The notes: generated by a model not told the origin, from the letters alone. Positions 25,350 to 46,323 are shown, numbered from the stretch's first letter. The stretch is DNA of 64,000 bases from Virgisporangium ochraceum (GCF_016863655.1 NZ_BOPH01000084.1:1-64000), one strand, 5' to 3'. Numbers and translations are program-made.

Positions 25350-26435
25350 GTGCGTAGATCTACCGTGCTTCTGACGGGTGGAGCCGTCGTGGTGCTCGCC
25401 TTCGCGGCGGTGCTGCGGTTCGCGATCGTCCCCGGTCTGCAGCAGTTGCCCGACGACCTCGACACCACGCTGCACTACACGGGAACCGCCGACATCCTCG
25501 ACGAGGCCGCGCTGATGAAGGGCGACCTCGCCAACGGGTTCAAGACCGGCGTCCCGGTGGAGTTGGAGCAGCGGGTGCGGGTCGTCTCGGCGCACGGCGA
25601 CACGGTCGTCGTCACCGACGAGACCGTGCTGACCGACCCCGACGACAACCGGCTGTCGAACACGAAGCACACGTTCGCGGTCGACCGGAGGAACCTCGCC
25701 GCCGCGCCGGCGCCCGCGGGCGTCACCGTGGAGCCGCACCAGGGCCTCACGGTCGGCTTCCCGATCCCGCCGGAGCCGACCGACTACACGTACTGGGACT
25801 ACCCGACCGCGATGGGCGCCACGGCCGCGTACGTGCGTACCGAGCAGCGTGCCGGTCGCGAGACCTACGTGTACCAGATGAAGACCGCGGGACCGCTGGC
25901 CGACCCGTCCGTGGCCGGCGACCTGCCGACCGCGCTGTCGAAGCAGGTGCTGCTCGCGTTCGCGCCGTCGCTGCCGCCCGACCAGCAGGCGCAGCTGAAG
26001 CAGTACGAGGCGCTCCTGCCCGACCAGCTGCCGCTCAGCTACACCGCCGAGGGCGAGAACACGTTCTGGGTCGACATCACGACCGGCTACGTCGTCGACG
26101 TGGCCCGCAAACAGAAGATCGACGTCAGCCTCGCGCTCGGCCCCATCGTCGTCCCGCTCGCGTCGGCGTTCTCCCTCGACCTGCGGTTCGCCCCCGACAC
26201 CGTGCGGACCATCACCGCCGACGCCGAATCGGCCGCGTCGGGGCTGCGGCTGATCTCGGTGATCGTGCCGATCGCGCTCGTCGTTCTCGCGATCCTGCTG
26301 GCGCTCACGCCGCTCTTCCTGGCCCGCCGCCGGCGGCGCACCGTGCGTCCACAGGAGACGGTGACCCAGCCGGTGGCCGCGCCACCGGCCGCGAGCCCTC
26401 CCCCGGCGGCCGCCGTCGGCGCCGACGAGAAGTGA
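25350..26435 (+). CDS. DUF3068/PorA-family membrane protein
   Basis: A 361-residue protein with an N-terminal hydrophobic segment (about 5-30, VLLTGGAVVVLAFAAVLRFA), a large beta-rich extracytoplasmic region and a second membrane helix near 307-329 followed by RRRRR and a Pro/Ala tail. The layout and internal motifs (YWDYPTAMGATAAY, FWVDITTGYVVDV) fit DUF3068, annotated as a PorA-family protein in actinobacteria. It is the middle gene of the KstR-controlled ADH/LLM operon, 18 bases after ADH. A role in envelope passage or sensing of sterols is possible but unproven. Confidence 0.75.
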   Translation: MRRSTVLLTGGAVVVLAFAAVLRFAIVPGLQQLPDDLDTTLHYTGTADILDEAALMKGDLANGFKTGVPVELEQRVRVVSAHGDTVVVTDETVLTDPDDNRLSNTKHTFAVDRRNLAAAPAPAGVTVEPHQGLTVGFPIPPEPTDYTYWDYPTAMGATAAYVRTEQRAGRETYVYQMKTAGPLADPSVAGDLPTALSKQVLLAFAPSLPPDQQAQLKQYEALLPDQLPLSYTAEGENTFWVDITTGYVVDVARKQKIDVSLALGPIVVPLASAFSLDLRFAPDTVRTITADAESAASGLRLISVIVPIALVVLAILLALTPLFLARRRRRTVRPQETVTQPVAAPPAASPPPAAAVGADEK

Positions 26436-36371: not shown

Positions 36372-37919
36372 CTAGATCGACCGCTCGCGGTCCTTCCAGT
36401 AGGCGTCGCGCAACCGTCGCTTGTAGAGCTTGCCGTTCGGGTCGCGCGGAAGCTGGTCGGTGTAGTCGATGGTGCGGGGCAGCTTGAACTTCGCCAGCCG
36501 CCCGGTGAGGAAGGCCATCAGTGACGCGGTGAGCTCCGGCCCCGGCTCGATCCCGGGCCCGGGCTGCACGACCGCCTTGATCTCCTCGCCCCACTCGTCG
36601 TGCGGGATGCCGAAGACGGCCACGTCGGCGACGTCGGGGTGGCACAGCAGTTCGCCCTCGATCTCGGCCGGGTAGATGTTGACCCCGCCGGAGATGATCA
36701 TGTCGCTGCGCCGGTCGCAGAGGAACAGGTAGCCGTCGTCGTCGAGGTAGCCGATGTCGCCGACCGTGAACAGCTTGCCCACGCGGGCCGCGCGGGTCTT
36801 CGCCGCGTCGTTGTGGTACTCGAACGTGGCCTCGCCCATCTGCATGTAGACCTGGCCGGTGTCGCCGGTCGGCACGTCGTTGCCGTCGTCGTCGAGCACG
36901 CGCACCACGGAGCCGGGCCACGGCCGGCCGACGGATCCGGGACGCCGCAACCACTCCTCGGCGAAGATCGTCGTTCCGCCGCCCTCGGAGGCGGCGTAGT
37001 ACTCGACGACCACCGGCCCCCACCACTCCAGCATCCGACGCTTGATCTCCGCCGGGCACGGCGCGGCACTGTGGATCATGCACCGCATCGAGGACAGGTC
37101 GTACGCCGACCGGACCTCGTCGGGCAGGGCGAGCAGCCGACGGAACTGGGTCGGCACGAGGTGGCTGTGCGTCACTCGGTGCCGCTCGACCAGGCGCAGC
37201 GTCTCCTCCGGGTCCCACCGGTCCATCAGCACGACGGGATGGCCGAGCTGCAGCGAGATCGTGGCGAAGTTCAGCACCGCCGTGTGGTACAGCGGCGAGG
37301 AGCACAGGTGCACGTTGGAGTCGTTGGGCTTCAGCCCGAAGATCCCGAAGAACCACGTGGCGTTCGGCGGCAGCACGTCGGGGTCGGCACCGGTGAGCGG
37401 GCGGCGTACGCCCTTGGGCCGCCCCGAGGTTCCCGACGTGTAGACCATCGGCGCGCCCATCGTCCGGTCGGCGGGCCGGCCGGAGGTGTCGGCGCCGAGG
37501 TCCTCGAACGGGCGGAACCCGGGCACGGCACCGATGGCGAAGCGCGCGTCGGCGGGCAGCCCGGCGGTGTCGGCCGCCTCCACGGCGGCATCGGCGAAGC
37601 GCTCGTGGGCGATGAGGACCTTCGCGCCACAGTCCTTCAGGATGTACCCGATCTCGGCGCCCACGAGGTGCCAGTTGACCGGCACGATGTACAGGCCGGT
37701 CTCCAGCGCGGCGAAGAACGCGGCCAGCAGGGCCGCGCTGTTCGGCAACTGGACCGCGAAGCAGTCGCCCGCGCGCAACCCGGCCGACCGCAGCCCCCGG
37801 CCGATGCGGTCGGCCTCGGCGGCGAGGTCGGCGTACGTCACGATCCGGCCGTCCGGTTCGACTGCCGCGGTGCGCCGCGGCTCGCTGCCGGCGATGGCCC
37901 AGAGCCCGATGGCGGTCAC
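36372..37919 (-). CDS. Acyl-CoA synthetase, KstR-linked, specificity unknown
   Basis: A 515-residue AMP-forming ligase. The phosphate loop is YTSGTSGRPKG (160-170), later YYAASEGGGTT, GDIGYLDDDGYLFLCDRRSD and the C-terminal Lys in PRDPNGKLYKRR. It is not a close match to FadD19 or, from memory, to FadD17 or FadD3. A substrate among shortened side-chain acids is likely. GTG at 37919 is chosen because the KstR site at 37931 lies only 11 bases upstream; an upstream in-frame ATG at 37967 would put the operator inside the gene. No good ribosome site is visible. Confidence 0.82.
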   Translation of the reverse strand: MTAIGLWAIAGSEPRRTAAVEPDGRIVTYADLAAEADRIGRGLRSAGLRAGDCFAVQLPNSAALLAAFFAALETGLYIVPVNWHLVGAEIGYILKDCGAKVLIAHERFADAAVEAADTAGLPADARFAIGAVPGFRPFEDLGADTSGRPADRTMGAPMVYTSGTSGRPKGVRRPLTGADPDVLPPNATWFFGIFGLKPNDSNVHLCSSPLYHTAVLNFATISLQLGHPVVLMDRWDPEETLRLVERHRVTHSHLVPTQFRRLLALPDEVRSAYDLSSMRCMIHSAAPCPAEIKRRMLEWWGPVVVEYYAASEGGGTTIFAEEWLRRPGSVGRPWPGSVVRVLDDDGNDVPTGDTGQVYMQMGEATFEYHNDAAKTRAARVGKLFTVGDIGYLDDDGYLFLCDRRSDMIISGGVNIYPAEIEGELLCHPDVADVAVFGIPHDEWGEEIKAVVQPGPGIEPGPELTASLMAFLTGRLAKFKLPRTIDYTDQLPRDPNGKLYKRRLRDAYWKDRERSI

Positions 37920-37930
37920 GCTCGTGAATG

Positions 37931-37944
37931 TATAACGCGTTCTA
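37931..37944. promoter_or_regulatory. KstR operator (TATAACGCGTTCTA)
   Basis: One mismatch from TAGAACnnGTTCTA. It is 11 bases upstream of the acyl-CoA ligase GTG and probably overlaps its transcription start. A second operator for the divergent operon lies 42 bases away. Confidence 0.85.
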
Positions 37945-37986: not shown

Positions 37987-38000
37987 TAGAACGTGTTTCA
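37987..38000. promoter_or_regulatory. KstR operator (TAGAACGTGTTTCA)
   Basis: The left half is perfect and the right half has the same GTTTCA variant as the site at 24223. It ends nine bases before the GTG of the DUF35 gene that leads the ltp4-ltp3-choA operon. Confidence 0.82.
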
Positions 38001-38009
38001 CTATCGTGT

Positions 38010-38957
38010 GTGGAGACAGCGCTGAGCGCCCCGCTGACCATCAGCTTCGACTACACCCGGTCCCTGGGGCCGGTGCTCAGCCGCTTCATGACCGCGCTCG
38101 CCGAACGGCGGATTCTCGGCACCCGCGGCTCCGACGGCCGCGTGCACGTGCCGCCACTGGAGTACGACCCCGTCACCCACGCGCCGCTGACCGACCTGGT
38201 CGAGGTCTCACCCGTCGGCACCGTCACGACGTGGACGTGGGTGGAGCGCCCGATCGACGGCCAGCCTCTCGACCGTCCCTTCGCCTGGGCCCTGATCCGC
38301 CTCGACGGAGCCGACACCCCGATGCTGCACGCCGTCGACGCCGACGCCAAGGAGGCGATGCGCACCGGGATGCGCGTGCGCGTGCGGTGGGCCGCCGGTC
38401 CGGTCGGCCACATCCGCGACATCGCCTGCTTCGAACCCGGCGACAGCCCGCCGGAGACGCAACCCGTGACGGCCGGGCCCATCGCGAGTGTCACCACGCC
38501 GATCCACCTCGGCTACACGCACATGGTCTCGCCCGAGGAGACGCGTTACCTGCGCGGCCTCGCCGAGGGCCGGCTCCTCGGCCAGCGCTGCCCCGTGTGC
38601 GGCAAGGTGTACGTCCCGCCGCGCGGCGCCTGCCCGGCCGACGGCGTACCCACCACCGACGAGGTGGAGCTGTCGAGCACCGGAACCGTCACCACGTTCT
38701 GCGTCGTCAACGTCCCCTTCGCCGGGCAGCGGGTGAAGCCGCCGTACGTGGCGGCGCAGGTGCTCCTCGACGGTGCCGACATCCCCATGCAGCACCTCAT
38801 CCTCGGCTGCCCGGCCGACGAGGTGCGGATGGGCATGCGGGTCGAGGCGGTCTGGAAGCCGCGCGAGGAGTGGGGCACCACGCCCGAGAACATCGACCAC
38901 TTCCGGCCGACCGGCGAGCCGGACGCGCCGTACCAGTCGTACGCCCACCACCTGTGA
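38010..38957 (+). CDS. Tandem DUF35 OB-fold protein (Rv3521-like)
   Basis: A 315-residue protein with two DUF35/OB-fold-like halves (about 10-150 and 165-300), each with a VEVSPVGTVTTW- or VELSSTGTVTTF-type strand. The second half has a zinc-ribbon remnant, Cys194, Cys197 and Cys208 (a fourth Cys is lacking); the first half has none. DUF35 proteins partner with thiolase-fold SCP2-like aldolases, as in ChsH2-Ltp2. Standing directly before ltp4 and ltp3, it is the natural partner of one or both. The order matches Rv3521-Rv3522-Rv3523. The start has no ribosome site. Confidence 0.82.
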   Translation: METALSAPLTISFDYTRSLGPVLSRFMTALAERRILGTRGSDGRVHVPPLEYDPVTHAPLTDLVEVSPVGTVTTWTWVERPIDGQPLDRPFAWALIRLDGADTPMLHAVDADAKEAMRTGMRVRVRWAAGPVGHIRDIACFEPGDSPPETQPVTAGPIASVTTPIHLGYTHMVSPEETRYLRGLAEGRLLGQRCPVCGKVYVPPRGACPADGVPTTDEVELSSTGTVTTFCVVNVPFAGQRVKPPYVAAQVLLDGADIPMQHLILGCPADEVRMGMRVEAVWKPREEWGTTPENIDHFRPTGEPDAPYQSYAHHL

Positions 38958-38966
38958 GGCACATCC

Positions 38967-40019
38967 ATGATTGACGTGGCCGTGGTCGGCTTCGCCGAGG
39001 CTCCCTGCCAGAGGCACGCGATCAGCACCACCAACGGGGTGGAGATGCTGGTGCCGGTCTTCCAGGAGGTGCTCGCCGCCACCGGTCTGTCCAAACAGGA
39101 CATCGGCTTCTGGTGCTCCGGCTCGTCGGACTACCTGGCCGGGCGGGCGTTCTCGTTCGTCTCGGCCGTCGACGCGATCGGCGCGTTCCCGCCCATCGTC
39201 GAGTCGCACGTGGAGATGGACGCCGCGTTCGCGCTCTACGAGGCGTACGCGAAGCTGCTGACCGGCGAGGCGGAGACCGCGCTCGTGTACGGGTTCGGCA
39301 AGTCCTCGGCCGGCCACCTGCGCCGCGTCCTGGCCCTGCAGCTGGACCCGTACGTGCTCGCTCCGCTGTGGCCCGACTCGGTGAGCATCGCCGCGTTGCA
39401 GGCGCGGCTGGGCATCGAGGCCGGCCTGTTCAGCGAGCGGGCGATGGCCGAGGTCGCGGTCCGCTCCCGCGCCGACGCGCGGTCGAACGACAGGGCCCAG
39501 GTCTCCGGCGAGTCCACGGTGGACGATCTGCTCGACGCCGACTACGTCGCGGACCCCCTCCGGGCACACGACTGCGCACCCGTCGGCGACGGCGCCGCAG
39601 CGGTGATCCTCGCGGCCGGCGACACCGCGCGGCGGCTCAGCCCGCGACCGGCGTGGATCGACGGCTTCGCGCACCGGGTGGAGTCGCCCGGGCTCGGCCA
39701 GCGCGACCTGACCACCTCCGCGTCGACCGCCGCCGCCGGGGTCGCCGCGGGTGCCAGCGGCATCGACGTCGCCGAGCTGCACGCGCCGTTCACGCACCAG
39801 GAACTCCTGCTGACCCGCGCGCTCGGCCTCGGCTACGGCACCCGGATCAACCCGTCCGGCGGCGCGCTGTGCGCCAACCCGATGTTCGCCGCGGGTCTGA
39901 GCCGCATCGGTCACGCCGCCACGGCGGTCACCACCGGTCGCGCCGACCGGGCGCTCGGGCACGCCACGAGCGGACCCGCACTCCAACAGAACCTCGTCTG
40001 CGTCCTGGAGGCCCGATGA
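38967..40019 (+). CDS. ltp4: Thiolase-like lipid-transfer protein Ltp4 (side-chain aldolase)
   Basis: A 350-residue SCP2/thiolase-like protein (Rv3522-like). Thiolase-fold features include VESHVEMDAAFALYEAYAKLL (about 76-96), the PVGDGAAAVIL loop (about 207-217) and INPSGGALCANPMFAAGLSRIGHAA (about 292-316). The classical catalytic cysteine of degradative thiolases is not in its usual place, as in other Ltp aldolases. In Rhodococcus ltp3, ltp4 and fadD19 are required to degrade C24-branched sterol side chains. Its stop overlaps the ltp3 start (ATGA). Confidence 0.88.
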   Translation: MIDVAVVGFAEAPCQRHAISTTNGVEMLVPVFQEVLAATGLSKQDIGFWCSGSSDYLAGRAFSFVSAVDAIGAFPPIVESHVEMDAAFALYEAYAKLLTGEAETALVYGFGKSSAGHLRRVLALQLDPYVLAPLWPDSVSIAALQARLGIEAGLFSERAMAEVAVRSRADARSNDRAQVSGESTVDDLLDADYVADPLRAHDCAPVGDGAAAVILAAGDTARRLSPRPAWIDGFAHRVESPGLGQRDLTTSASTAAAGVAAGASGIDVAELHAPFTHQELLLTRALGLGYGTRINPSGGALCANPMFAAGLSRIGHAATAVTTGRADRALGHATSGPALQQNLVCVLEAR

Positions 40020-41170
40020 GAAGGGCAGCGGTTCTCGGTACCGGGCAGACCGACCACCGGAGCAGGCGCCTCGACGTCTCGATGGCGGGCCTGTGCCGCG
40101 AGGCGATCGACCGGGCGATGGCCGACGCCGGCGTCGACTGGCCGCAGATCGACGCGGTCGTGCTCGGCAAGGCCCCGGACCTGTTCGAGGGCGTGATGAT
40201 GCCCGAACTGTTCCTCGCCGACGCCATCGGCGCCACCGGCCGCCCGCTGCTGCGGGTGCACACCGCGGGCTCCGTCGGCGGATCCACCGCGGTCGTCGCG
40301 AGCAGCCTCGTGCGCGCCGGTGTCCACCGGAGGGTGCTGGCCGTCGCGTTCGAGAAGCAGTCGGAGTCGAACGCGATGTGGGCACTGTCGATCGCTCCCC
40401 CGTTCACGATGCCCGTCAACGCCGGGGCCGGCGGCTACTTCGCGCCGCACATCCGCTCCTACATCCGGCGCTCCGGCGCGCCACGGCACGTCGGCGCGAT
40501 GGTCGCGGTCAAGGACCGTCGCAACGGCGCGCTGAACCCGCACGCCCACCTGCGCCAGCCCGACATCACCCTCGAGTCCGTCGACGCGTCGACGATGCTG
40601 TGGGACCCGGTGCGCTACGACGAGACGTGCCCCTCGTCCGACGGCGCCTGCGCGGTCGTCATCGGCGACCAGGAGGCGGCCGAGGCGAGCGACCGCCAGG
40701 TCGCCTGGATCCGGGCCACCGCGATGCGCACCGAGCCCACGATGTTCGCCGGCAAGGACCACGTGAGCCCGCGCGCCGGCCGGGAGGCCGCCGAGGCGCT
40801 GTGGCGCGACGCCGGCATCACCGACCCGCTCGAGCAGATCGACGCGGCCGAGATCTACGTACCGTTCTCGTGGTTCGAGCCGATGTGGTTGGAGAACCTC
40901 GGCTTCGCCGCACCCGGACAGGGCTGGAAGCTCACCGAGTCGGGCGAGACCGGCCTCGACGGCGCGCTGCCGGTCAACCCGTCGGGCGGGGTGCTGTGTT
41001 CCAACCCGATCGGCGCGTCGGGCCTGCTGCGTTTCGCCGAGGCGGCGATGCAGGTGATGGGGCGCGCCGGGGAGCACCAGGTCCGCGACGTCGACACCGC
41101 CCTCGGGCACGCCTACGGAGGCGGGTCCCAGTTCTTCTCCATGTGGGTGGTCGGAAGGAGTCCCCGATGA
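40016..41170 (+). CDS. ltp3: Thiolase-like lipid-transfer protein Ltp3
   Basis: A 384-residue SCP2/thiolase-like protein (Rv3523-like) with TGQTDHRSRRLDVSMAGL at the start, VHTAGSVGGSTAVVASSLVRAG (about 80-101), CPSSDGACAVVIGDQE (about 203-218) and VNPSGGVLCSNPIGASGLLRFAEAA (about 320-344). It is expected to act with Ltp4 and the DUF35 protein in retro-aldol removal of a side-chain unit from C24-branched sterols. ATG overlaps the ltp4 stop, and its own stop overlaps the start of the cholesterol oxidase gene. Confidence 0.88.
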   Translation: MRRAAVLGTGQTDHRSRRLDVSMAGLCREAIDRAMADAGVDWPQIDAVVLGKAPDLFEGVMMPELFLADAIGATGRPLLRVHTAGSVGGSTAVVASSLVRAGVHRRVLAVAFEKQSESNAMWALSIAPPFTMPVNAGAGGYFAPHIRSYIRRSGAPRHVGAMVAVKDRRNGALNPHAHLRQPDITLESVDASTMLWDPVRYDETCPSSDGACAVVIGDQEAAEASDRQVAWIRATAMRTEPTMFAGKDHVSPRAGREAAEALWRDAGITDPLEQIDAAEIYVPFSWFEPMWLENLGFAAPGQGWKLTESGETGLDGALPVNPSGGVLCSNPIGASGLLRFAEAAMQVMGRAGEHQVRDVDTALGHAYGGGSQFFSMWVVGRSPR

Positions 41171-42765
41171 CGAGCCGCCGCACGCTGCTCCAGGCCACCG
41201 CTCTCGGCGCCATCGCGAGCCAGGTCCCGCTCGCCGCCGTGGGAGCGGCGCCGTCCCTCGTCGGCAAGACCGCGGTGGTGGTCGGTAGCGGCTTCGGCGG
41301 CGCCGTCGCCGCCTACCGCCTCGGCCGGGCCGGCGTGCAGACGACCGTGCTGGAACGCGGACGCCGTTGGGACGTCAATGCCGCCGGCACCACGTTCTGC
41401 ACGATCAGCAACCCCGACTGGCGGTGCGCCTGGTTCGCCGACCGGCCGCCGCTCGGCATCGACGTGAGCCGGACGATCCAGCGCCGGGCGGGGCTCATCG
41501 CCACCCATGCCGGCGACGGCATCAAGGTCCTCAGTGGATCCGGGGTCGGCGGCGGGTCGCTCGTCATCGGGATGTTCCTGCCCCAGCCGCGCCGCGGCGA
41601 GTGGACCCAGGTGTACCCGGCCGAGCTCAGCTACGACGAGTTCGACTCCGTCTACTGGCCCCGGGCGCGGCAGAACCTCGGCGCCGCGACGATTCCCACC
41701 GACATCCAGAACACGGCGCAGTTCAAGGGCTGCCGGGCGTGGCTGGAGTACATCGCGGAGTTCGGCCAGACGCCGGTGCCGATCCCGTTCGCGGTCAACT
41801 GGGACACGATCCGCAAGGAGATGACCGGGCAGGCGCCGAAGTGCCACTCGATCGGCGAGGGTCCGTACGGCAGCAACTCCGGCGCGAAGAACAGCGTCGA
41901 CCGCAACTACCTCCAGTGGGCGGCGGCCACCGGCAACGTCACCACGCTGGCGCTGCACGAGGTCACCGAGATCCGCGAGGTGTCGGGGCAGGAGAGGTTC
42001 GAGGTCCGCTGCCGGCAGATCGACGAGTACGGCACGGTGCTGTCGACGCGGACGTTCGTCTGCGACTACCTGTTCCTCGCGGCCGGGTCGGTCTACACGA
42101 CCTCGCTGCTGCTCACCTCCCGCGCCCGGGGCGGCCTGCCCAGGCTCACCAACGCGAACGTCGGCAAGGGCTGGGGGAACAACGGCGACTTCCTGGTCGC
42201 CCGGTTGAACCTGCGCAAGGACGTCGGGTCAGCACAGGGCGGGCCGGGCAACGTGAAGTTCATCGACGACCAGAACCCGTTCGCCGTCGCGTCGATGGCC
42301 TTCGAGAGCGCGCCGGTGCCCACCTGGTTGCCGAAGACGACCGCGCACCTGGTCACCAGCCTCGCGCCCGAACGCGGCGAGATCCGCTACGACGCCGCCA
42401 CCGGCGCCGGCAGGGTGTACTGGCCGTACGGGGTCATGGAGACCACGTCGGAGAAGGCCGCCCGCGACCTGGTGACCCGCCTCTGGTGGAGGACCGAGGG
42501 CAGCAAGGGCCATCTCTTCAGCGGTCTGCCCGACTACGACCGCGGCACCGGCTCGGGGCTCGGGTCGGCGAACACCTGGCACCCGCTGGGCGGCATGGTG
42601 ATGGGGAAGGCGACCGACTTCGGCGGCCGGGTGGTCGACTACCCGAACCTGTTCTGTGTGGACGGTTCCACCCTGCCCGGCTCGGCCTGCCTGTCGAACC
42701 CGGCGCTGACCATCACCGCCAACGCGGAGCGCATCATGGACCGGTTCGTCGCCGGCCGGGCGTGA
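41167..42765 (+). CDS. choA: Secreted cholesterol oxidase, GMC (ChoA) type
   Basis: A 532-residue GMC oxidoreductase. A Tat-type signal opens it (TSRRTLLQA, then a hydrophobic stretch to about Ala28). The FAD loop is GSGFGG (40-45). By alignment with Streptomyces ChoA, the active-site residues are Glu380 (AFES), His472 (WHPLGG) and Asn511 (SNPALTITA). It oxidises cholesterol with oxygen and isomerises the product to cholest-4-en-3-one, outside the membrane. ATG overlaps the ltp3 stop (ATGA), so the secreted oxidase is translated with intracellular side-chain aldolases under KstR control. This type is distinct from mycobacterial ChoD. Confidence 0.9.
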   Translation: MTSRRTLLQATALGAIASQVPLAAVGAAPSLVGKTAVVVGSGFGGAVAAYRLGRAGVQTTVLERGRRWDVNAAGTTFCTISNPDWRCAWFADRPPLGIDVSRTIQRRAGLIATHAGDGIKVLSGSGVGGGSLVIGMFLPQPRRGEWTQVYPAELSYDEFDSVYWPRARQNLGAATIPTDIQNTAQFKGCRAWLEYIAEFGQTPVPIPFAVNWDTIRKEMTGQAPKCHSIGEGPYGSNSGAKNSVDRNYLQWAAATGNVTTLALHEVTEIREVSGQERFEVRCRQIDEYGTVLSTRTFVCDYLFLAAGSVYTTSLLLTSRARGGLPRLTNANVGKGWGNNGDFLVARLNLRKDVGSAQGGPGNVKFIDDQNPFAVASMAFESAPVPTWLPKTTAHLVTSLAPERGEIRYDAATGAGRVYWPYGVMETTSEKAARDLVTRLWWRTEGSKGHLFSGLPDYDRGTGSGLGSANTWHPLGGMVMGKATDFGGRVVDYPNLFCVDGSTLPGSACLSNPALTITANAERIMDRFVAGRA

Positions 42766-42794: not shown

Positions 42795-44021
42795 TCAGCG
42801 GTAGGCGACCGGCAGGTCCTTGATGCCGTTGAGCCAGCCCGACCGCAGCCGCTCCACCTCGGCGGCCTTCCGGATGTCGGGCATCCGGTCGGCGATCGCG
42901 TTGAAGATGAGCTCGATCTCCAGCCGGGCGAGGTTGGCGCCGAGGCAGAAGTGCGCGCCGCTGCCGCCGAACCCGAGGTGCGGGTTGGGCGTGCGCATGA
43001 TGTCGAACGTGTACGGGTCGGTGAACACGGCCTCGTCGTAGTTGGCCGACCCGTAGAAGATGGCGACCCGCTGCCCCGCCCTGATCTCCTGGCCGGCGAG
43101 CACGGTGTCGTGCTTCGCGGTGCGCTGGAACACGTTCACCGGCGTGGCCCAGCGGATGATCTCCTCCACCGCGCTCTTCGGCCGCTTCTCCTTGAACAGC
43201 TCCCACTGCTCGGGATGGTCGAGGAAGGCGAGCATCCCGTGCGAGATCGCGTTGCGGGTGGTCTCGTTGCCCGCGACCGCGAGCAGCAGCACGAAGAACC
43301 CGAACTCGTCCGACGACAGGTGCTCGCCGTCGAGCTCGGCGTTGACGAGCTTGGTGACGATGTCGTCGGTCGGCGCCTCCTTGCGCTCCTCGGCCATCGC
43401 CATGGCGTACGCGAGCAGTTCCATCGCCGCCGACAGCGGTTCGACGTCGTACTCGGGGTCGTCGTAGCCGATCATCTGGTTCGACCAGTCGAAGATCTTC
43501 TTCCGGTCGGTCTGCGGGATGCCGAGCAGCTCGGCGATCGCCTGCAGCGGCAGCTCGCACGCCACGTCGGTGACGAAGTTGCCGGTGCCGGAGTCGAGCG
43601 CCTCCGACACGATCCGCTCGGCCCTCGCGGTGAGCGCCGCGCGCAACGCGTTGATGGCGCGCGGGGTGAAGCCGCGGGAGACGATCGCCCGCACCTTGGT
43701 GTGCTGCGGCGGGTCGATGTTGAGCATCACGAGCCGCTGCATCTCGATGTTCTCGCGGTCCATGTCCGACCGGAACCGCACGATCGCCGTGTTCTCCCAC
43801 GACGAGTACGTGTCGGAGTCGCGCGACACCGTCATCACGTCGGCGTGCCGGGTCACCACCCAGTACCCGTCGTCGTCGAACCCCGCGGCGCCGTGCGGCT
43901 GCGCGTTCCACCACACGGGCGCGACGCGGCGCAGTTCCGCGTACTTCTCGTGCGGCAGACCGTGAACGAGAATGTCCGGATCGGTGAAGTCGAATCCCTC
44001 CGGGATGTGCAGCTCAGCCAC
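42795..44021 (-). CDS. cyp125: Cytochrome P450 CYP125 (sterol C26 monooxygenase)
   Basis: A 408-residue P450 that follows CYP125A1 almost throughout (DFTDPDI start, VMLNIDPPQHTKVRAIVSRGFTPRA-type region, PNPHLGFGGSGAHFC). The haem ligand is Cys359, the acid-alcohol pair lies in AGNETTRN, and the C-terminal RSGWLNGIKDLPVAYR matches. It hydroxylates the terminal C26 of cholesterol or cholestenone, starting side-chain breakdown; redox partners are not next to it. GTG at 44021 follows GGAGGGG. Here it is divergent from fadA5, not downstream of it as in M. tuberculosis. Confidence 0.94.
   Translation of the reverse strand: MAELHIPEGFDFTDPDILVHGLPHEKYAELRRVAPVWWNAQPHGAAGFDDDGYWVVTRHADVMTVSRDSDTYSSWENTAIVRFRSDMDRENIEMQRLVMLNIDPPQHTKVRAIVSRGFTPRAINALRAALTARAERIVSEALDSGTGNFVTDVACELPLQAIAELLGIPQTDRKKIFDWSNQMIGYDDPEYDVEPLSAAMELLAYAMAMAEERKEAPTDDIVTKLVNAELDGEHLSSDEFGFFVLLLAVAGNETTRNAISHGMLAFLDHPEQWELFKEKRPKSAVEEIIRWATPVNVFQRTAKHDTVLAGQEIRAGQRVAIFYGSANYDEAVFTDPYTFDIMRTPNPHLGFGGSGAHFCLGANLARLEIELIFNAIADRMPDIRKAAEVERLRSGWLNGIKDLPVAYR

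Positions 44022-44073: not shown

Positions 44074-46323
<2,250 letters not shown>

Follow-up and report, generated by a model that had tools for sequence, protein, structure and literature searches.

In the soil actinobacterium Virgisporangium ochraceum, the gene for an exported-type cholesterol oxidase, choA, overlaps the end of ltp3, which encodes an aldol-lyase subunit predicted to act inside the cell. This arrangement raises the question of what keeps a putatively extracellular enzyme in one transcription unit with intracellular partners: the junction between the two genes, a substrate common to their products, or the regulator at the head of the unit. The window analyzed here is a stretch of 64,000 nucleotides (GCF_016863655.1, NZ_BOPH01000084.1:1-64000), which was compared with related genomes. 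Considered together, the observations make it likely that choA ends a KstR-headed operon, that the exported oxidase is made with the sterol genes, and that the operon hosting it is replaceable.

Gene organization and predicted KstR operators

The sterol cluster spans 24-64 kb of the window and includes echA19, hsaA/C/D, kshA, kstD and hsaF/G-type genes. Within it, a DUF35 gene (38010-38957, plus strand) encodes an aldolase partner of the ChsH2 type with an OB-fold and a zinc ribbon (PF01796, PF12172). Two genes for thiolase-like aldol-lyase subunits follow on the same strand, ltp4 (38967-40019; NCBIfam NF005924/PRK07937, 573 bits, cut-off 419) and ltp3 (40016-41170; NF006180/PRK08313, 718 bits, cut-off 514). 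Both products thus exceed the cut-offs of their subfamily models in profile searches, and the DUF35 gene adjoins them, as expected of Ltp3/Ltp4 aldol-lyases. The fourth and last gene of the predicted operon DUF35-ltp4-ltp3-choA is choA itself (41167-42765, plus strand), assigned as a class I (non-covalent FAD, GMC) cholesterol oxidase with a twin-arginine leader on the basis of homology to 1COY, family domains and the catalytic triad.

On the 5' side, a divergent fadD-type acyl-CoA synthetase gene (36372-37919, minus strand; PF00501/PF13193) is also kept in relatives. The convergent neighbor downstream (42795-44021, minus strand) encodes a P450 that matches PF00067 only; it is called cyp125-like here on account of its conserved context, as it adjoins fadA5 in relatives. 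The steroid 3-ketoacyl-CoA thiolase gene fadA5 itself lies at 44128-45273 on the plus strand (NF005889/PRK07850, 678 bits, cut-off 515). Elsewhere in the sterol cluster, a PorA-type porin gene (25389-26435; PF11271) is flanked by genes for an NDMA-type alcohol dehydrogenase and an Rv3520c-type F420 oxidoreductase.

KstR-type palindromes of the form TNNAACNNGTTNNA occur six times in the 64-kb window, against an expectation of 0.05, and none of 100 shuffled sequences reached six. The gap between fadD and the DUF35 gene holds two pattern matches, TATAACGCGTTCTA (37931-37944), closer to fadD, and TAGAACGTGTTTCA (37987-38000), just 5' of the DUF35 gene. Each of the 18 Micromonosporaceae relatives examined, all of which have the operon with choA intact (L093 and 17 family loci), carries a box pair in this gap, 55-68 bp apart. 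The pattern search detected no box between 38001 and 42765, and hence none in ltp4, ltp3 or choA; in the same 18 relatives, the 700 bp preceding choA were likewise free of boxes. In Crossiella, the equivalent operon-head gap contains no strict match and carries a box one base off, GAGAACGTGTTTCA, at -44, in the equivalent place before DUF35. Palindromes at the presumptive promoter, conserved as a pair, predict KstR binding and membership of the operon in the KstR regulon. The initial annotation had placed ltp3 and choA under a KstR site; two boxes do head the operon, although they lie 3.2 kb upstream of choA and not at choA itself.

The oxidase and its predicted export

Residues 36-529 of the oxidase (about 490) match class I cholesterol oxidases of known crystal structure, with 1COY the best match (E 3e-86), and identity to the characterized class I enzymes 1COY and 4REK is 37-38% (37% for 1COY). 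Residues E380, H472 and N511 correspond to E361, H447 and N485 of 1COY and are invariant in 14 orthologues; the Glu380 column was misplaced in one MAFFT run, and two other alignments agree on the assignment. Full-length homology together with the catalytic triad places the protein in class I (GMC type), for which cholesterol oxidation and isomerization are predicted. The NCBIfam cholesterol oxidase equivalog NF058674 was dropped as a test of identity: the window oxidase scores 106 bits against a cut-off of 850, and this model evidently does not cover class I oxidases, because 1COY itself reaches only 117. An AlphaFold model built from 14 close orthologues was likewise set aside (mean pLDDT 45.6), as the alignment was too shallow.

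A quick tree, to be read with a warning about long branches, places the window oxidase in a lineage distinct from 1COY and 4REK; two Streptosporangiaceae copies fall close to it, and a Rhodococcus branch, 53% identical, lies outside. Proteobacterial metagenome-assembled genomes (L108-L112) also carry oxidases of class I type that share 34-37% identity with that of the window; the three placed on the tree formed a branch of their own. Searches for other candidate first-step enzymes gave 23 matches to PF01073 (3-beta-HSD), of a generic short-chain dehydrogenase kind that all 14 control genomes match too, and no matches to PF09129 (the class II covalent oxidase domain), with none in the controls either. 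Intracellular 3-beta-HSD activity encoded elsewhere in the genome may therefore accompany the oxidase.

The leader, MTSRRTLLQATALGAIASQVPLAAVGA, contains a twin arginine (R4, R5) followed by a hydrophobic stretch, from which Tat export is inferred. The twin arginine is invariant in the 14 aligned orthologues, and the leader is otherwise variable. Several Actinoplanes orthologues have short leaders with no obvious cleavage site, and in these the enzyme may therefore stay anchored. Extended to the oxidase generally, this would mean an enzyme that remains inside the cell or bound to the membrane and acts on imported sterol, with no free extracellular first step. We consider such a location unlikely, given that an invariant arginine pair precedes a hydrophobic stretch, that a plausible cleavage site, VGA|APS, can be read by eye in the window oxidase, and that ChoG of Rhodococcus is extracellular (PMC5348764). 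Export through the Tat route thus remains our preferred prediction.

Conservation of the ltp3-choA link and its alternatives

Among 251 Micromonosporaceae genomes surveyed, 36 carry ltp3, and the 19 with an intact copy of the window-type oxidase all belong to these 36. In 18 of these 19 genomes, ltp3 is followed on its own strand by the oxidase gene, once with an insertion in between. The sole exception is Salinispora, where choA adjoins cyp125-fadA5 and ltp3 is about 35 kb away. The operon is also present in two Crossiella, which belong to another family, and in Paractinoplanes rishiriensis; across 28 ltp3 loci in other families of the order, the up to 1.5 kb of downstream sequence covered contained no choA. 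Recurrence in 18 of 19 family genomes with an intact oxidase is more than chance would give, and on these genome comparisons the link is genuine and has been retained within a limited set of lineages. The initial annotation had held that a failure of related genomes to conserve the link would make it accidental, and the survey found the link kept. Its proposal that an exported-type oxidase shares a transcription unit with aldolase genes under KstR control was also upheld, as a prediction from gene order and operator boxes.

The form of the junction is less constant than the gene order. In the window, the ATG of choA (41167-41169) and the TGA of ltp3 (41168-41170) overlap as ATGA (41167-41170, plus strand), exactly where the initial annotation had located the overlap. 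A Shine-Dalgarno-like run, GGAAGGAG, lies within the 3' end of ltp3 (41153-41160, plus strand), six bases 5' of the choA ATG, and the ltp4/ltp3 junction is likewise ATGA (40016-40019). A start with the 4-nt overlap is available at 13 of the 18 Micromonosporaceae loci that have choA behind ltp3; at four, a gap of 10-13 nt separates the genes. These four include V. aurantiacum (13 nt), a member of the same genus, so that stop-start coupling, as had been suggested for this junction, is not a conserved feature. In Actinoplanes italicus (L038:7403-8794), an insertion of 1.4 kb with a TnpB-like frame splits ltp3 from a choA that is still intact.

This last arrangement bears on whether choA might be driven mainly by a promoter of its own inside ltp3, its neighborhood being a passive cluster. 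The Salinispora copy of the oxidase gene sits in the sterol cluster, away from ltp3, and that of A. italicus is intact 1.4 kb behind ltp3; independent expression of choA must therefore be possible somewhere. We nevertheless judge it quite improbable as the general rule, considering that no KstR-type box occurs in ltp3 or within 700 bp of choA, that the two genes overlap or lie at most 13 nt apart at 17 of the 18 family loci, and that the Shine-Dalgarno-like run of the window sits inside the end of ltp3.

Fifteen ltp3-bearing genomes of the family lack any copy of the window-type oxidase. In 12 of them (Actinoplanes-like, L147-L158), a class I oxidase gene lies directly behind kstD, 27-75 kb from ltp3; its product is 34-36% identical to the window oxidase and falls on the 1COY side of the tree. 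A KstR-type box immediately precedes kstD in 10 of the 12, and in the other two it heads the same gene run. In a thirteenth genome, G042, a similar oxidase is encoded on a separate contig and is preceded by boxes at a distance of about 1.9 kb; in the remaining two (G146 and G041), no similar oxidase was found. Genomes G017 and G019 present yet another state, a shortened in-frame oxidase remnant behind ltp3 together with a stand-alone oxidase gene that has KstR-type boxes 50-215 bp upstream. Both remnants (L051:8260-9552, minus strand; L052:8301-9302, plus strand) keep the twin arginine, the FAD motif and an open frame, and in both the equivalent of Asn511 is Ser; Glu380 is replaced by Ala only in L051, from G017. 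Such remnants may be on the way to loss or may have taken on another function.

On the ltp3 tree, the ltp3-linked and kstD-linked types form clades inside the Actinoplanes-like genus. Many independent oxidase swaps were rejected on this ground, and the change to kstD-choA is essentially one clade-level switch in Actinoplanes. The ltp3-linked form is more widely scattered on the tree than the kstD-linked form and is perhaps the older of the two. Coupling to ltp3 is not the essential feature, because in sister lineages an oxidase from a different lineage is found behind kstD or under KstR boxes of its own. What appears constant across lineages is the predicted KstR control of an exported-type oxidase, with ltp3 as one of several hosts.

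The alternative wirings also bear on the idea that this oxidase is specialized for plant or fungal sterols with a C24 branch, its link to DUF35-Ltp4-Ltp3 reflecting a common role in phytosterol use. Class I oxidases as a rule accept differences in the side chain, which counts against such specialization. The same ltp3 operon coexists elsewhere with a different oxidase lineage behind kstD, and therefore no substrate-specific pairing is required. In its favor, the oxidase forms a distinct, deep class I lineage, which within the family sample is confined to genomes that carry ltp3, and Ltp3 and Ltp4 act on C24-branched side chains, as stated in the passages of PMC8708139 and PMC6678751 that cite Wilbrink 2012 for these aldol-lyases. 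Overall, we find specialization for phytosterols very doubtful. The same assignment alters one detail of the initial annotation, which saw the first and a late step of sterol breakdown joined here; that description does not fit, because Ltp3 and Ltp4 serve C24-branched sterol side chains and are not late enzymes of cholesterol breakdown.

Regulatory model and comparison with known systems

In the model that we favor, the pair of KstR operators at the operon head, shared with the divergent fadD, would control DUF35-ltp4-ltp3-choA. Release of KstR by a sterol-derived ligand would give rise to a single mRNA, on which ribosomes ending ltp3 would go on to choA by way of the ATGA/GGAAGGAG junction. 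The oxidase would then fold with FAD, exit by the Tat route and convert the 3-beta-hydroxy-5-ene of its presumed sterol substrate to the 3-keto-4-ene, on the outer side of the membrane or on the cell surface, and DUF35-Ltp4-Ltp3 would remain inside and remove the C24 branch of plant sterols. Selection would favor an exported oxidase under KstR, and the operon that hosts it would be replaceable. The conserved placement of choA as the last gene of the operon suggests that the outside oxidase is probably made only when the sterol-catabolic genes are on. Regulon control, already proposed as the likely point of the arrangement, holds as a prediction, the KstR boxes being constant across wirings. 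A broader reading, to which we give even chances, is that sterol-degrading Micromonosporaceae hold an exported first-step oxidase under KstR by means of any available operon; the ltp3-linked lineage would have been displaced in some by a non-orthologous oxidase that was tied either to kstD or to a KstR operator of its own, leaving catalytically damaged remnants that possibly have a new role. Within the family, Actinoplanes missouriensis grows on cholesterol and Salinispora arenicola metabolizes it (PMC4810484).

According to a 2021 study of a related actinobacterium, cho genes of actinobacteria are not located in steroid clusters (PMC8708139). The in-operon choA, conserved in Micromonosporaceae and Crossiella, contradicts this statement for Micromonosporaceae. 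Relatives also show natural replacement, in which a different operon carries an oxidase of another lineage, and these two features together make the regulation of extracellular 3-beta oxidation within sterol catabolism directly testable. An uncharacterized oxidase lineage is, in addition, on offer for sterol biotechnology.

Several known systems resemble the window locus in part. The enzymes 1COY (Brevibacterium) and 4REK (Streptomyces type) share full-length homology, the Rossmann FAD site, the Glu/His/Asn triad and an exported type with the window oxidase, which nevertheless groups in a separate lineage with the Rhodococcus branch. The cho gene KR76_09550 of Nocardioides simplex has a KstR box and is induced by sterols but is located outside the sterol clusters (PMC7807495, PMC9782250). 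The kstD-choA units of other Actinoplanes combine a class I oxidase with KstR-type boxes in the same sterol cluster, differing in the host gene and in the lineage of the oxidase. DUF35-Ltp4-Ltp3 genes occur in the same order in other actinobacteria, and it is the trailing choA that was missing from the up to 1.5 kb downstream at the 28 loci of other families; among open-access papers, we found no report of an ltp3-choA operon. The closest parallel is kstD3-hsd4B-choG of Rhodococcus, which is co-transcribed on cholesterol, as determined by RT-PCR, and has KstR boxes upstream (PMC5348764). Tight regulation is debated even in Rhodococcus, since the R. ruber oxidase is described as constitutive in a review (PMC6678751). 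In kstD3-hsd4B-choG, as is predicted for the window, an extracellular oxidase stands last in a KstR-boxed polycistronic unit with cytoplasmic sterol enzymes; the partners, unlike those in the window, are kstD3 and hsd4B and not DUF35-ltp4-ltp3, and ChoG was compared by its published description. The principle of an exported oxidase in a sterol operon is therefore already known from Rhodococcus, and the ltp3 operon is new as its partner.
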